Source: Ramicandelaber brevisporus (lineage: Eukaryota; Kickxellomycota; Ramicandelaberales; Ramicandelaberaceae). Taken from it: a stretch of DNA of 21,890 nt. The notes below the pieces were generated by a model. It worked only from the letters and a program-made list of their open reading frames with translations. It was not told where the DNA came from and did no database searches. Position numbers and translations under genes: made by a program. Shown piece after piece: positions 2,829-21,207 of the stretch (within the stretch, counting starts at the first letter, position 1; the number at the start of each line of letters is the position of its first letter). The stretch lies in assembly GCA_025201865.1 (NCBI GenBank), contig MU602733.1, positions 1 through 21,890 on the forward strand, written 5' to 3'.

Positions 2829-5800
2829 TTAGTCAAGAATCCATTCTTGAATGTTTCGTACATGCTTCAACATAAATGTTTGTAAATCTCTCGTTACAAA
2901 CGCCAAAATACCATTTTCTAACAATGTAACCAGCCTGTTGAGTCTCGCCACAATCTCACAATAAGTCTGCAAATTAAATGGACTGAACAGCTCTGCGTGT
3001 AATCTTGGATTCTGCGCCAGTTCTTCAGGTGCCGATGGGTTAGTGAACTGCACCAAGTGAGTCGGCAAATCTGGAATCTGGCAGCTGGCAAGGCTATCAA
3101 AGTATATCATCCAGTCACTAATAAATGAAATTGATTGCAACAAAGTGTAAAGTCGCTCAGTGTATTCCAGCGTGTCCTCAATCTTATCACCAGTGCCAAC
3201 TACGCCAGATGAGCTGATTTTACCTTCAGGTCGTCGAATTACTGCGAGAACTGGATTGTTGTTGGCTGCCAGTGCTGCTGCTGCTGCCGCCGACGAGGGC
3301 AGATCATGTTTACTATCATTCTGTGACGAATTGGCGCCGCTTCGGGTTAATTTACTTGTCATCGATTTGAACATGCTGAGTGTGCTGCTGCTACCGTTGG
3401 AGACAGCTGGAGAAGGTGCAACAACAACTGTAGCATGGTGCTGACCGGCATTGATCTCACTTGCAGGGTCTGGAATGTATCTCAACTTTTTACTCAAGAC
3501 ACGTTGGATGGAAATGGCTTGCATCTCTAGCTGACCAAGTTCGCGTAGTGCGTGCGGTGCCAATGAGGCAAGTTGCATCAAATCAACTGTGATTGGTGCA
3601 GATGGCATGGACGTGGTTGGTGTCACACTAGTGCCCGATACAGCTGCAGTGTTAGCTGCTGCAGATGCAGCAGGGTCGACCAGGGCAGGAATCGCAATGG
3701 TTTCGGTGACCTGAGACATTGCGGCAGCCAGCATATCCAGAGCTTGCATTTTATAGTCATAGGACATTATGCGTATTCCAGACTGGAACCAAACTGTGCG
3801 AGGAACATGGAATGTATCTGACAGCCAGCTCTCACTCTCAATAGACTGCATCAATTTGCGTGCAAGCGTCAATGCTGGATGCGATGGTGGAACAATCGGT
3901 GCAGATGCTGCAGGAATTGTAGCATGCGACAAATCGACCACCATTGACATTGGACGTGAGCTGCGAGACCGAGTTCCACTGCTTGCTGAGTGAGTGGAGC
4001 GAGCATCTCCACTGCGAGTCTTTGTTGTGGCGATGGCTGTGCCTAGACTGAGTGTTGCAGTTGACGTGGCTGAAGTAGGTGTGGGGAGTGAGCCCAGGGC
4101 GGTAGAAGAGTATAGTGAGGCAGAGGCAGAAGAGGGCACAGCGAGTGCAGAAAAGAATGTTTGCTGAGAAGATGCTCCTTTAATTGCATTCAATCCAAAA
4201 GTTACATTTGACGAGTTTCCAGCTGAAGTGAAAATTGAACCCAAAGCAGAACGTCTGGATCCGCTTAAACTGACTCGACTGCTATTAACACTGTTGGAGG
4301 TATTACTCAAACTAAAGCTAGCCGTGGGCAATGGTGGAATTGATTCGCGCGGATCAAATACAAATTTATTGCCATTGCCATTATTATTAATAGTAATATT
4401 GCTACTTATGCTAAGGTTGCCAGTACTGCTATTTAAATCCGGGCTCCTCATCATTCTATCCAGCGATCTTCTCAGTAAGTTATCTGCACTCTTTTTGTGA
4501 CTAACTGTGTTTGAAACATTCCCGCCTCCAGCTGCAGTTGCCGCCATAACAGGTGACATTGAAGCCAATATAGTACTGCGTCGTAAATCCATTGAGCTGC
4601 TACTGCGACTCAGTGCTGCTGCTGCTGCTGCTGCTGCTGATCCATTCTCATTCTTCGGCATCATTGAATTATCAGCCACGTGGCGTGCAGCAGGGCTACC
4701 AATGGACAGTCGAGATAATATTCCACCACTCTTGCTATTGTTACCACTTCCAGCTGATGAGACTGAAACTGGACTCTTTATGCCGTTTGAATTTAAATTG
4801 GAAGTGCTCTTCTTCTTTCTAGTTCCCAATAATGTACCAAACATTGATGTAAATTTATGATCTCCATTAGATTCTGAACCATTATCATTAGCATTATTAC
4901 TGCTGTTATTATTAAGACTAAGTGATAGCGTTGGTGGGGATGATGCAAGTGACAATGAAGGTCTACTGTCTTCCACCTGGTCAGTATTAGCTCCATTAAC
5001 AGCTTGAGATTCACTCAGGCCAACTGCTGGTAATTGGGTGGTAGCAGCACTCGTGATGACTGCCGTAGTAGTTGAATTTGATACAGTTTCATCATTGTCC
5101 TGCTGCTGTGGAATATCAGGCAGTGGTTTCTTCAAATACGCTTCGTGGACCGATCGAGGCATTCTGCGAGCTGCTGATTTGTTGGGAACAGCTGGCGGCA
5201 CTGGTGAAGTTGGGCTCATCGATTCCATATCATTAGATCCAACTGATTGGTTGCTCGGAAGTCTAACACCCGAGGGCAGTGCAACTGGAACATTGCCTCC
5301 CTGAACTGCCGCGAGTGCTGATGACACTGTCTGGGCTCGCCTCAGGTTATGGTCGTAGGCTAAATGCGGGTGCTGGTATTGCTGCTGATATTGATTATAC
5401 TGATCGAGTGGGTAGGTGGGTGTTGGATGGCCCTTATTTGGCTCTAGGCCAAGTGTTTGACCATAGTAGCCCTGCATTATAGCAGCCGTGTTGTTTGCAC
5501 TAGGCGTGTACATCGACTGAACTGGCTGAGGACGTCCTGTGCGAGCTGATATCATCGATTGATCATGTGCCTGGATCGCTGCCATGTGTGGCTGAGTTGG
5601 AGCAGGCGTCGATGCCACATACTGAACTTGTTGATGCAATGGCTGCTGCTGTTGGAACTGAGGATATGCCTGAGTGTGTTGATTATTCTGTTGCGGTTGT
5701 TGCGCTTGCGTGTGTTGCTGCGTGTGCTGTGTTTGTTGCTGCTGCTGTTGTGTTTGCTGCTGCATGTGCTGCATCAATGTATCGATACGATCCGAGTAGG

Positions 5801-15536: not shown

Positions 15537-15638
15537 AGAGTATGAGCAATTAAAGTATCAGAAACAAACAAACAAAAATAGAGAGTAAAGTCTATCATGA
15601 GCTAAGAGCTAAATAAGTGAAAGGAGAGCGGAAGTTTG

Positions 15639-17030
15639 TTAACGGGCAGCAGCGAGACCAACACGGCGACCACCAACATCATGCACAGTGTAGTACGCAC
15701 GGAGGAACACATCACCCAGAATCCAGCCGCTTCCATTGTCCAAACCGCCAGCAAATCCAGAGACACAGACACCGCTTGTGTCTTGCAATGTGTATTGATC
15801 CTTAGTCAGCTCCAGCACGTGCTCACCAAGTCTGATTGCAAGAGTCGGTCCAGCACCGCACGGAATAATATACAAACCGTTGCCCACTGAACGCGCACCG
15901 ATTGCTTGGTTTACCAGCGAAGCATCGCGATCGCCCATCACAATCAAAGTGGAGCCAGTGTCCAAAATTGCCGAGCGCTCTCCAATGCTCAGCGGTGAAG
16001 CAGCTCTCGCTTTGCCGTTGCCCGAGATGGTTGCAGCGCCAGTGAGTGGCACTCGCCAATGTGCCGCTTCTGCCAGCGGTACATATTTGAGCTCACCATT
16101 AAACCTGCTGGAGTTGATGCCACCAAACAGAATCTCGCTATCGGAACGGCCACTCTCGCTGCCCAGGTACACTGAAAACACAGGTGCATCCAGCTGCCGC
16201 TGCTGAATCATACGGAAGATGGGCGGCGTCATGCCAGAAGACGAAGCCGATGGGAATGCCAGTCCAAAGATGCCTTCAAAGTTTTGGCCAACAAAGAAAT
16301 CGGCTTCTTGGACAGACTGGCCAAACTCAGTTTGAGGGACAGTGAAACCACCAAACCGTAGAGTGTCACGAGCAACAAGACCCGTCATCGACCCGGTGAC
16401 ATAGCGAATGCGGAATGGACGGCGGGTGAGTTCACCAGTGGAAGAGGCAGCAACATTGTACTTGTTGACACTGCGACAGGCATTCGATGTGCATTGTGCG
16501 CCAGGAACCCACAGGTCGACGGAGCCGGTGTCAAAATTGACCTTGAATGATTGCGGTGGCGTGCCCAGCTGGACAGTGCCGTAGTAGTACATGTTGTTGT
16601 TGTCGACGAGATTCTCCGGTCGAGTATCACGTTTGCTGAGCGGTTGCTGCTGCGATTGTTGTTGTTGTTGCTGAGAGATGGCTTCAGTAACAGCTTGGCT
16701 TGGTGGAAGAGAGTGTTTCTGGGCAGCAGCGTACAGCATATGTGGACCTTTGGCCAGAATGTTGAACTGTTTGCCATGACCGCCGGAATAAGTTAAAGCG
16801 ACGCGCACTGTCGCGCCACGACCAGATGCCTCGGTTGAGTTGGCAACATCTGGGATACTGGCAAAGACTGGTGGCAGGGGAAGTGAAGAGAAGTGTTCGT
16901 GCTGCTGCTGTTGGTGCTGCTGAAGAGTGTCGATGTCGCCTGGCTGCGGTGGAAGGACGACTGCATTGGAAAATGAAATGGATGAAGCAACCAGAGCCAG
17001 GAGGTAACTCGAAATGTATCTCTTGTGCAT
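15639..17030 (-). CDS. Secreted pepsin-family (A1) aspartic protease
   Basis: The protein has 463 residues. The signal peptide is about 1-23 (YLLALVASSISFSNA). The propeptide contains two Gln tracts (38-43 and 120-130) and ends at K133-R134, a Kex2-type site, directly after the second tract. The mature bilobal protease has both catalytic aspartates in DTGS motifs: FDTGSVDLWVPG (D167) and ILDTGSTLIVMG (D357). The flap is IRYVTGSMTG with Y210. C180-C185 and C391-C422 fit the two conserved disulfides, and WILGDVFLRAYYTVHD (436-451) is the usual C-terminal block. The protein ends at GLAAAR with no anchor or Ser/Thr tail, so it is likely secreted rather than a GPI-anchored yapsin. It would mature in the Golgi or at acidic pH. 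The start is the first in-frame ATG. Confidence 0.93.
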   Translation of the reverse strand: MHKRYISSYLLALVASSISFSNAVVLPPQPGDIDTLQQHQQQQHEHFSSLPLPPVFASIPDVANSTEASGRGATVRVALTYSGGHGKQFNILAKGPHMLYAAAQKHSLPPSQAVTEAISQQQQQQSQQQPLSKRDTRPENLVDNNNMYYYGTVQLGTPPQSFKVNFDTGSVDLWVPGAQCTSNACRSVNKYNVAASSTGELTRRPFRIRYVTGSMTGLVARDTLRFGGFTVPQTEFGQSVQEADFFVGQNFEGIFGLAFPSASSSGMTPPIFRMIQQRQLDAPVFSVYLGSESGRSDSEILFGGINSSRFNGELKYVPLAEAAHWRVPLTGAATISGNGKARAASPLSIGERSAILDTGSTLIVMGDRDASLVNQAIGARSVGNGLYIIPCGAGPTLAIRLGEHVLELTKDQYTLQDTSGVCVSGFAGGLDNGSGWILGDVFLRAYYTVHDVGGRRVGLAAAR

Positions 17031-17335
17031 TTCTTTTCTATGTTTATGATCTGTTTAATTGGATTTGAAAGTGTTGTTATTTTTTCTATTAAGAAAGAGA
17101 TAATGAGAATAAGCAAGGAAGTAATGTGATATGAGAGAATGAGAGTATGTCAGTGGATTGTGTAGAGGAAACGGCGCCACAGCTGCTAATTAAAAGGGAG
17201 TGCAAATATTGAAACACGAAAAGGTTCCAGAACAAAAAAAAAACAGCAACAACAACAGCAACAACAACAACAACAATTTTAAGACATTAAGGAGACTGCT
17301 ATGAGACACATATCCCAGGTTCCTGGACCTTTGAT
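17031..17335. promoter_or_regulatory. Aspartic-protease promoter and kinase 3' region
   Basis: This 305-bp gap separates two minus-strand genes. Next to the protease start it is AT-rich with A/T runs (17041-17100). A perfect CAG/CAA tract spans 17244-17276 (11 triplets), preceded by an A9-10 run at 17233-17242. No other element is evident. Confidence 0.5.
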
Positions 17336-17340
17336 TTATT
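17335..17340 (-). terminator. AATAAA signal overlapping the kinase stop codon
   Basis: The minus strand reads GGAATAAATC: the TAA stop (17338-17336) lies inside an AATAAA hexamer. If this hexamer is used, the 3' UTR would be only a few tens of bases. Confidence 0.45.
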
Positions 17341-18472
17341 CCCGAGCAGCTGTCGATGCTGATCTAAGCTGCTGGACCTGGGCAAGGACTTGCCGAATAT
17401 TCGGTCTGGCGGCTGGATCAGGATTCAGAATGAACTTGATCAAATCAATCAGTTCCTGAGAGTAGTGCTGGCGAGCAGAGGATGGAACCGTGTATTTGGC
17501 GCCAAGAACAGCCAGGGCGATATTGCCACCTTGCTGATTCTGCTGTCTTTCAAAGGGCGAATCGTTGAAGGCGAGCGCATATAGCAGGCAGCCAAGTGAC
17601 CAGATATCCACAGCCTCGTCAATGACAGCCTCCGGCTTCACATCGAACAGCTCTGGAGCGCGATACGGCATTGAGCACAGCTGAGCAGCATCGTCTTGCA
17701 ACGTCAACGCCTGCGAACGATCGCCAACCCACTGACGAGCCACATCGGCACTGCCCAGGTCCATCAGTACTGGAACACCGTCATCACTGAGCAGCACATT
17801 GCCCGGCTTGATGTCGCGATGGGCACACGGGAACAGCAGTTGGCCATTCTCGTCAGTCGCTGGATGAGATTGCGCATACTCTGGACAGTTCTCGGCAATC
17901 ACCTGGTGCATCCTTGTGGCCTGCGCAGTCTCTTCCGGAGTCTTTGCGGTATAAGTATGCATTGCCAGCACACCTTCACAGATTCCGCTAAACAACTCAA
18001 GCACTCGACTCTCCGGCATGTGCGTATTCTCGACCATGTTACGGTAGATCATGTTCATCAATGAGCCTCCGCGATACACTGGCAGCAGCATTAGATACAC
18101 CTTGTCTCCGCCGCTATTGCCATCGCTTCCGATTGTCGTTGTGATCGATTTGGTGCTGGTTTCAATGGCACAATCCTTGAGCTCAATGATATTCTTGTTG
18201 CCGTTCAGACGACGTGTCCATGTCACTTCGTTCTGCGCAGCATTGGCAGCCAGTGTCATGCCGCTTGGAACAATCATCTTCTTTAGTGCGAATTCACGTG
18301 ACGTGGCTGTATCGCGCACGAGAAGCACACTGGCAAACGCGCCTTCGCCGAGGCTCCTGACAATCTCGTAAGATCTGCCATTGATAACGAGCGACGGACT
18401 CGGCAGGCACGGCTGTATCAGGTCGAATGCGGCAGTGTAGACAGACGCCAAGGTATTGACCAGGAAGCTCAT
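17336..18472 (-). CDS. STK16/MPSK1-like Ser/Thr kinase (NAK family; yeast Env7, S. pombe Ppk13)
   Basis: From ATG 18472 the protein has 378 residues; upstream in-frame sequence starts only at a GTG. All kinase landmarks are present: glycine loop GEGAFASVLLV (42-52), K64 in FALKK, E82, catalytic loop HRDIKPGN (218-225), DLG rather than DFG (238-240), APE (272-274) and DIWSLGCLLY (289-298). A DLGS metal-binding motif and the HRDIKPGNVLL context are typical of STK16, a Golgi/vacuole-associated kinase involved in secretion and membrane fusion. Human STK16 is myristoylated at Gly2; here residue 2 is Ser, so anchoring would rely on Cys22 palmitoylation or the hydrophobic N-terminus. An insert of roughly 45 residues (about 172-215) precedes HRD. 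It shares a 273-bp divergent promoter with dynein light intermediate chain. Confidence 0.9.
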   Translation of the reverse strand: MSFLVNTLASVYTAAFDLIQPCLPSPSLVINGRSYEIVRSLGEGAFASVLLVRDTATSREFALKKMIVPSGMTLAANAAQNEVTWTRRLNGNKNIIELKDCAIETSTKSITTTIGSDGNSGGDKVYLMLLPVYRGGSLMNMIYRNMVENTHMPESRVLELFSGICEGVLAMHTYTAKTPEETAQATRMHQVIAENCPEYAQSHPATDENGQLLFPCAHRDIKPGNVLLSDDGVPVLMDLGSADVARQWVGDRSQALTLQDDAAQLCSMPYRAPELFDVKPEAVIDEAVDIWSLGCLLYALAFNDSPFERQQNQQGGNIALAVLGAKYTVPSSARQHYSQELIDLIKFILNPDPAARPNIRQVLAQVQQLRSASTAARE

Positions 18473-18745
18473 CTTAGGCAAAACGTGGGTGAAGAAAATA
18501 CTGTGAGCAAACGAACGACAAGCGCACACACAACGCAAGAGAGAGCAAGAGAGAAGGGGAGAAAGAGATCGAGCTCTCTCCACCTTCTTCTCTCTTGCCG
18601 GCTACCACGACTTGCGTAATAACAGCCCCACCCCTCTCAACAAACACTACCACCAACCGAGTTGACAATCAAGAACAAGACGCAGCAGCAGCAACAACAG
18701 CAACAGCAACACGAGCGCACGCGTAGTAACTGTTAAGAAAAGGCG
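18473..18745. promoter_or_regulatory. Divergent promoter between the kinase and dynein light intermediate chain
   Basis: This 273-bp gap lies between opposed start codons. It carries a GAGA-rich stretch (GAGAGAGCAAGAGAGAAGGGGAG area, 18537-18570), whose complement gives the pyrimidine-rich kinase leader. CAG/CAA triplets at about 18678-18712 sit just upstream of the dynein start and lead in composition into its coded polyGln. Confidence 0.5.
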
Positions 18746-21207
18746 ATGGATGCACTAAGTCCCAAGGTTGCCGCTACGGCTGGTCAGCAACAACAACAGC
18801 AACAGCAGCAAGATCTATGGTCAGTGATCTTGGGCAGTGTAGCTTCTCCAAAGAGCATAGCACCAAAGCACCTGCTGCTGCTGGGAGATCCGTCTGCAGC
18901 CAAGAGCCAGCTCATCGAACAGCTCAAACGCGCATCAAACTCTACACAGGCATTTGGTGGAGAGCAGGTGGGTTCATCAACTGGCATCCCTACCCTTGAC
19001 ATCCCCTCAATTGGACAGCAACAGCAGCAGCAAGCGGCAGGTGCAGGAAATGCAGACTTGGCATTGTCGTATAGATACATAGATGCACATGATGATGAGA
19101 ATGAGGATGTATTGGCACGCATTGATGTGTATAGTTTGGCATCTACTATTAGCTCGTTAACTGGAGTGTCTGATAACAACAGTGAGCCATTCTTGCCACT
19201 GCTTCGCTATCCAATCACAGGCCAGACACTTGCAGATGGACTTTCGTGTGTCTTGGTTGTTGATTTCTCCAACCTGTGGACAGTTGTGGCTCAGATTGAA
19301 TACTGGGTTAGCATCCTCACTGAAGCCATAAACAAAGTGACTAATCCGGCACCATCGTCTCAGTCGCCCAGCGTGATTTCACCGCAGCTTGGCAACAGAA
19401 ATCAGTCCAGCAATACTTTGTCAGCCTCAGCAGCTGCAGCTATATTTGACTCGTGTCGTGAGCAAATCGAGCAGTTGTGGAAGTCCTACCAAGATCATTC
19501 TGCGCAATCTTCCACTGCCGCGGCTGTCGCTGCTTCTGCCGTCCCAACCTCATCAGCTGTGACTACTGTGGATGTTCCATTGCCTCCTGGCACCCTTACT
19601 CAGAACCTTGGCATTTCATTGGTGATTGTGCTGGCTAACACTGAGGCATACATTGCCCCGCCAGGTGGAACTGCATCCATGATTGTCGGCGGGCCGGGTG
19701 GAGCGGGCAGCGCTGCCGGTGGACTCCGTAATCGCCAAGTGGGAACGCGAGTTGATATCAGAGATGAACATGTTGATTTCATATTGCAAACTGTGCGCAC
19801 CATCGCCATTTCACTTGGCGCAGCCGTCTTTGCAATTCCTCAGCGCAATCCTGCGGCCAATGAAAGCACACTGAAGCTGTGGCAATATGTTGTGCATCGT
19901 TTGATGTCATTCCAGCCAGTGGCTGTAACTGCCAATGAAGTGGATGCCAAATCTCCCAGTTTGGAACCCTCGGCTGACGCAGCGTCGCCTCTGAACAAGG
20001 CAAGAGACAGTGGCGAGATTGGCGGAGTCATCCATTCGCAGAGACTGGGGATGTATCCATATCGCCATCGAGCACAGGTGATCGACAGAAGTACACTATT
20101 GATTCCAGCTGGGTGGGATTCATGGGGCAAAATTAGAGCAACCGTCACTGGATTTGAATGCCAGCGAATTTACACAGCTTGGTCTGGTGACATTACCGGC
20201 GAATCCGAAGGTGCTGGTGTTAGAGAGACTGCTCTGGCCATCACACTGGCCAACCTGCCCCAGCCTCCTCCCACTCTCAATGTGCCTTCGATAACTCAGA
20301 GATATGGTGGACGCCACAAACAGCAACAATCACAGCTTCAGCAAAGCGATAAATTAGACACTCAGCAGAACACAATCGCTGACGAGACTGTGGCTGATGA
20401 TGACCAGCAGTTCCTTGGTAAATTCTACGAAGTGCATCTGGAGACTCATGCCATCAATCTATCCAGCGCTGCTACCTCTCAGCGTCACAAACTGAGTTCA
20501 CCAAGACCGGCCATCTCAAGCGAGTTTGGCTCATCCTCTGGCCCATCATCCGCCACATCATCCAATCTGCCTCCAGCCATTGCCGCTGCTACTTCTGCCG
20601 CCACCTCTGCTGCATCATCCGCTGCCGCTGCTGCAATGGCTCGTCTGCAGGCTCATCCTCTGGCCCATCATCCGCCACATCATCCAATCTGCCTCCAGCC
20701 ATTGCCGCTGCTACTTCTGCCGCCACCTCTGCTGCATCATCTGCTGCCGCTGCCGCTATGGCTCGTCTGCAACTCCCGAAGCGGAACAATCCAAGCATGT
20801 CCCAGCAGAATGGTGGAATTGTCAGTGGCTCAACTGGCGGCTCCTCTGGCAACTCGCCTCAGCTCGCCTCAGCTCCATCGTTCTCTTCATCCTCAGACGG
20901 CGGCAATGCTGCCTTGGGTTCAACTTCAGCCTCTGCGTCATCCTCTGGAGCACCTGCGTCTTCAGCTACCGCCGCTGCACGCAATGAGACCCTGATGAAC
21001 TTTTTTAACACATTGAAAACGAGACGCCAGACTCCATCACCCTCAGCCGGCGCAGACCAAACAGCCGGTGGTGCATCATCATCATCGACTGCAGCTACTG
21101 GAGCTGGAGGAAGCGCACGACCAACTGGCACGATGGATATTCAGGCACAGCTTGCTCGTCTTCAGCGTGCAAACCGTGCCAACCCAGCTGTTGCAAAGCC
21201 CCAGTAA
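18746..21207 (+). CDS. Cytoplasmic dynein light intermediate chain, frame broken by a 122-bp duplication
   Basis: DLIC binds the dynein heavy chain with a Ras-like domain and recruits cargo adaptors with its C-terminal tail. From ATG 18746: polyGln (14-22), LWSVILGSV, a Walker-A-like LLLLGDPSAAKSQLIEQL (43-60), then the Ras-like core with LSCVLVVDFSNLWTVVAQIE and the block near IPAGWDSWGKI. This frame stays open to 20995 (749 codons), but after about 20650 it turns into a Leu/Pro/His-rich sequence unlike the family. The true tail is in another frame, 20758-21207, and contains NETLMNFFNTLKTRR, matching the adaptor-binding helix of DLIC ('ANFFNSLLSKK' in humans). Two near-identical 122-bp copies (20528-20649 and 20650-20771) cause the shift, since 122 is not a multiple of three. 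With one copy the protein would have 779 residues. The Walker A glycine before Lys is Ala (GDPSAAKS), so nucleotide binding may be weak. The family call is firm; the state of the reading frame in the living cell is open. Confidence 0.85.
20528..20771. repeat. 122-bp tandem duplication, two copies
   Basis: Copies at about 20528-20649 and 20650-20771 keep an exact 122-bp period (for example ATGGCTCG at 20636 and 20758). I count three differences, all near the end: TCC/TCT, GCT/GCC and GCA/GCT. All three are synonymous in the dynein gene's own frame. The exact edges are uncertain by a few bases. Confidence 0.92.

Follow-up and report, generated by a model that had tools for sequence, protein, structure and literature searches.

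The dynein light intermediate chain (DLIC) gene of Ramicandelaber brevisporus, a fungus placed in the Kickxellomycotina, is interrupted in its genome assembly by a short tandem duplication, which raises the question of whether this organism makes a dynein subunit that has lost its adaptor-binding helix or whether the assembly has laid two versions of one exon side by side. R. brevisporus strain CBS 109374 is described as a widely distributed saprotroph of soils (PMC5285503). The window considered here is the whole stretch of 21,890 nucleotides that was analysed, corresponding to bases 1–21890 of contig C66 in a genome of 17.9 Mb and 510 contigs.

The duplication itself, which the first-pass annotation had reported at 20528–20771, is exact both by TRF and by copy-by-copy comparison. 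TRF assigns it a period of 122, 2.0 copies, 97% matches and a score of 467, the second-best of the 25 rows that the program returned for the window scoring 90. The two copies abut head to tail, with a spacer of 0 and no common base past either edge, and their junction contains no N in the deposited contig. With a unit length of 122, which 3 does not divide, the DLIC frame is lost on entry into the second copy, and a simple gene call runs into a nonsense tail that ends at 20995 (Table 1), just as the annotation had stated. Its further observation of three differences between the copies, each a third-position change that leaves the amino acid of the original frame unaltered, was verified at each codon; the residues concerned are Ser, Ala and Ala. 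These three differences span 16 bp. When every possible single substitution in the unit's first 120 bp is counted, 32.2% prove synonymous, and the chance of a three-out-of-three synonymous score is about 0.033; such a score is suggestive, although alone it is not strong.

Residues 1–634 of the DLIC ORF are 100% identical to the public R. brevisporus protein GQ42DRAFT_153789, and both the simple ORF (95.1 bits) and the deposited gene model P0001 (97.8 bits) match the DLIC family PF05783 above its cut-off of 19.7. Removal of either copy yields the same 779-aa protein, which contains NETLMNFFNTLKTRR. Downstream of the pair the DLIC frame stays open up to the stop at 21207 with no sign of decay, and the segment that lines up with EVL..FF.SLL in five other fungal DLICs (Table 1) is predicted to be the C-terminal adaptor helix, encoded by the DLIC gene in frame after the pair. 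This open frame with its conserved helix counts in favor of an assembly artefact. In the helix itself, which reads NFFNTLK, the second leucine of the SLL found in the five other fungal DLICs is a lysine. Helix 1 of human LIC1 and LIC2 is reported to be essential for binding of the adaptors tested and to be critical in vivo in Caenorhabditis elegans, and joint mutation of both helix leucines in human LIC1 abolished binding (PMC6336354); the main text of this source for helix 1 function uses neither the word fungi nor fungal.

Table 1. Positions of the features discussed, on contig C66 (window numbering) unless another contig is named.
Feature	Position	Strand	Details
Simple DLIC ORF	18746-20995	+	749 aa; DLIC frame to 20649, then frame-shifted nonsense tail; PF05783 E 5.8e-27
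Copy 1 of 122-bp pair	20528-20649	+	TRF and direct comparison
Copy 2 of 122-bp pair	20650-20771	+	Synonymous differences at 20742, 20754 and 20757 (copy 1/copy 2: 20620/20742 C/T, 20632/20754 T/C, 20635/20757 A/T)
56-nt 'intron' of P0001	20643-20698	+	GT-AG; donor CTC/GTCTGC, acceptor CCTCCAG/CCA
Remainder of the DLIC frame past the pair, up to the stop	20758-21207	+	ORF; weak C-terminal match to PF05783, under its cut-off of 19.7 (18.0 bits, E 0.0014)
NETLMNFFNTLKTRR, putative counterpart of DLIC adaptor-binding helix 1	20983-21027	+	Aligns with EVL..FF.SLL in 5 further fungal DLICs
Two-copy pairs of at least 70 bp, 97-100% matches	C66:20528 (122 bp), C2:48213 (118 bp), C1:49381 (76 bp)		TRF
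C2 pair	C2:48213-48448		118 bp x2; breaks methionine aminopeptidase 1 in zinc finger
C1 pair	C1:49381-49532	minus-strand frame	76 bp x2, 0 differences; next to a masked stretch
C344/C484 identical ends	C484:1-600, C344:23557-24156	opposite orientation	

The deposited model P0001 comprises 801 aa, not 749; it is untruncated and retains the helix. Its two exons, 18746–20642 and 20699–21204, translate exactly to these 801 residues, and the 56-nt intron between them runs from the end of copy 1 to the middle of copy 2, a GT-AG span across the copies that restores the frame. The annotation's suggestion that dynein, were the duplication real, would be without its adaptor-binding helix is not supported: the deposited model retains the helix by means of the modelled intron, as would a gene with a single copy. 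The donor of the intron, GTCTGC, is weak when judged by the general donor consensus, no CTRAY motif occurs inside the 56 nt, and the sense strand of the 122-bp unit carries no AGGT, the sequence of the classical route of intron gain. The intron is probably a patch introduced by the gene caller. Two other introns spanning exactly one unit were also considered: a 122-nt GT-AG intron that would restore the gene exactly requires a sense-strand AGGT in the unit and was rejected, and a 122-nt GC-AG intron at 20529–20650, possible on paper because AGGC occurs at the junction, has a poor donor context (G/GCTCAT) and was likewise set aside.

The DLIC pair has counterparts elsewhere in the genome. TRF was run with a minimum score of 80 and periods up to 500 on 164,604 unmasked bases of the same genome, taken from the whole of C66 and from the initial 50 kb of C1, of C2 and of C3, less stretches masked as N. 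Five arrays with a period of at least 25 were returned, two of them imperfect 28-bp arrays, which are neighbours at C1:37941–38121, and three of them two-copy pairs, each lying in apparent coding sequence and each with a unit not divisible by 3. The count of three is small, comes from the Ramicandelaber assembly alone and includes the pair that was the reason for looking; without C66, which was chosen for its pair, it amounts to two pairs per 102,157 bases. As two thirds of lengths are expected by chance to be indivisible by 3, these lengths speak against selection for frame and for nothing further. The C2 pair breaks the gene for methionine aminopeptidase 1 (MetAP1), and its copies differ at one site, CTA/TTA, which is synonymous, bringing the synonymous differences across the three pairs to four out of four. 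The public MetAP1 model, P0007 (390 aa), likewise bridges its pair by an intron, of 178 nt at C2 48332–48509, that begins one base into copy 2; the exons translate exactly, and the protein lacks 20 linker residues that are encoded in the DNA. This parallel also counts toward an artefact. The source contig of P0007 is given as 181,343 bp, as against 180,570 bp for C2, although the exons match C2 exactly. The frame broken by the C1 pair is only weakly AMP-binding-like, since a 98-aa one-copy read scores E 9.2e-5 and 21.8 bits, below the cut-off of 29.9. A scan of the same genome with the PF00501 profile for split genes returned 14 rows, among which no further pair stood out clearly.

More direct support for unmerged alleles comes from the ends of contigs. 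A scan with the kinase profile PF00069 yielded three pairs of same-score matches on different contigs, and the two of these pairs that were compared are identical throughout the kinase match, over 921/921 and 786/786 bases; the third comprises C164:42820–43713 and C275:12657–13550. The last 9,788 bp of C234 (24701–34488) align end to end with C465 1–9785, with seven substitutions and one 3-bp indel confined to offsets 554–1396 and the remainder identical. All seven substitutions fall in one open frame of 1451 codons, where five are third-position and synonymous and two are first-position replacements (His/Asn and Thr/Ala). Three differences are clustered within 13 bp (731–743), a pattern that resembles the DLIC pair, where three fall within 16 bp. 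Judged from these alignments, the ends of C234 and C465 represent two different alleles whose overlap was left unmerged. The coinciding ends of C344 and C484, in opposite orientation, are identical in the stretches compared (921/921 and 600/600); they may stem from haplotypes, from a repeat or from a chromosome end, and their identity was also counted in favor of an artefact. A second allele of the DLIC locus was sought in two ways. Comparison of 20400–20900 with the whole assembly recovered the self-match only, and 15600–18600 gave 54 matches, namely the window, a 71% relative on C509 and 52 short matches of about 30–60 bp, all to one small stretch. A literature search for heterozygosity in Ramicandelaber found no paper.

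By analogy with these overlaps, the 122-bp pair would be a local assembly artefact of two alleles, and dynein is probably unbroken, a reading to which a probability of roughly 0.86 can be given. It is the best available because the frame-breaking pairs, the synonymous differences within them and the unmerged allelic overlap are all accounted for. The first-pass annotation had already proposed two alleles of one exon placed side by side, either by an assembler joining two haplotypes or nuclei or by unequal crossover between alleles; the frame-breaking pairs and the allelic C234/C465 overlap support the two-allele idea, with the assembler as its most likely agent. The sequenced material, whether diploid, heterokaryotic or mixed, would have contained two slightly different alleles of the exon. 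The end of one partial assembly would have overlapped the start of the next by 122 bp, and because of the three differing sites this overlap would have been laid end to end instead of being merged. The true gene in each nucleus would then be single-copy, with 779 codons and an intact adaptor-binding helix, and the 56-nt pseudo-intron would be the gene caller's way of getting past a false frameshift. We infer the route by which the DLIC pair arose, the existence of single-copy alleles and the unreality of the introns; those that bridge the pairs in both P0001 and P0007 are probably not real.

Several observations weigh on the other side of this artefact reading. False duplication from contigs that carry different haplotypes at their overlapping ends is a described assembly error (Kelley and Salzberg 2010, PMC2864568), and as that account presents it, duplications within a contig are rarely false in this way. 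The DLIC pair lies inside one gap-free contig, which is the main point from the sequence against an artefact, and the C234/C465 overlap is 9.8 kb long and lies between contigs, such that a within-contig version of about 100 bp is proposed only by analogy. The one match of the DLIC locus in the assembly, with no second, single-copy locus, also counts against. Finally, as the C1 pair has no differences, alleles alone do not explain it, and the C344/C484 ends are identical too.

Among the alternatives, the one that fares best, though it is unlikely, holds that the duplication is real and gave rise to a new intron, with the 56 nt from the GT at 20643 to the AG at 20698 being removed, the frame restored and the linker lengthened by 22 residues. 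P0001 shows exactly such a structure, and all three differences, which are synonymous, fall in parts that would be exonic in both copies. In addition, a potato gene is reported to have gained an intron by tandem duplication outside the AGGT model (PMC4974935). This idea is at odds with several features of the locus and of the genome. The same event would be needed again for the other pairs, and the modelled intron has the weak donor, the lack of CTRAY and the lack of a sense-strand AGGT in the unit described above. A strong-intron motif occurs 8 times in the sample and shows no enrichment, since 20 rounds of shuffling in two-base blocks gave a mean of 10.3 and a maximum of 17. In the PF00069 scan, the best 35 of 122 kinase matches all stay in a single open frame over no fewer than 251 of the 263 profile positions; this set is biased to unbroken genes and includes two pairs representing doubled loci, and many of the matches below it are partial. 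With weak support, the motif count and the kinase frames thus give no sign of many introns in the genome. Three de novo intron scans furnished no training set usable for a genome-trained splice-site model, and one intron candidate at 4475–4531 on the plus strand was dropped, as it lies antisense within a 1198-aa ORF. The fullest form of the idea, in which a very young, wholly exonic duplication without AGGT would at one stroke have yielded a working intron of 56 nt from a cryptic donor and acceptor, with a longer DLIC linker as the outcome and with the MetAP1 pair making the process recurrent, is slightly more doubtful still. If it were true, the DLIC and MetAP1 pairs would suggest that new introns have arisen repeatedly from tandem duplications in a fungus with seemingly few introns.

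It is also conceivable, but very improbable, that the assembly erred without alleles, an overlap in haploid material having been left unmerged and the differences between copies being sequencing or consensus errors. The absence of differences in the 76 bp of the C1 pair and the identical C344/C484 stretches would fit such an account; errors are not biased to synonymous sites, yet four of four differences in the pairs and five of seven in the C234/C465 overlap are synonymous. Least likely of all is a plain truncation, in which a real duplication would deprive DLIC of its adaptor-binding helix in some or all nuclei, as the stop of the simple ORF at 20995, before the helix, might suggest. Against it, the helix is reported to be essential in human LICs for the adaptors tested and critical in C. 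elegans (PMC6336354), the downstream frame shows no decay, and comparable frame breaks in other sampled genes are implausible as biology.

If the artefact reading is true, there is no new dynein biology at the DLIC locus. Short and false tandem duplications may instead be numerous in the genes of this assembly, to judge from three pairs in 164,604 bases, and bridging introns of the kind modelled here, which are probably not real, could mislead work on how early-diverging fungi gain introns and on their pseudogenes and protein linkers.

Compared with known systems, the protein resembles dynein light intermediate chains (PF05783) in its core domain match, its long linker and an NFF..L helix close to the C-terminus. 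It differs from other DLICs in that the linker is a low-complexity stretch of Ala, Ser and Thr, and from the five aligned fungal DLICs, which have FFQSLL or FFKSLL, in its Lys at the position of the second helix leucine. The modelled intron recalls intron gain by tandem duplication in drawing on both copies, the upstream one for its donor and the downstream one for its acceptor; unlike such cases, it has neither AGGT nor CTRAY, and the duplicated stretch contains no parental intron. The cases of Kelley and Salzberg concern separate contigs, an arrangement found for C234 and C465, whereas the DLIC pair is 122 bp long, has a gap-free join and lies within one contig as deposited. With the duplicated overlapping contigs described in that report (PMC2864568) the pair nonetheless shares adjoining near-identical copies, allelic-looking differences between them and, in the same assembly, an unmerged allelic overlap of contigs.
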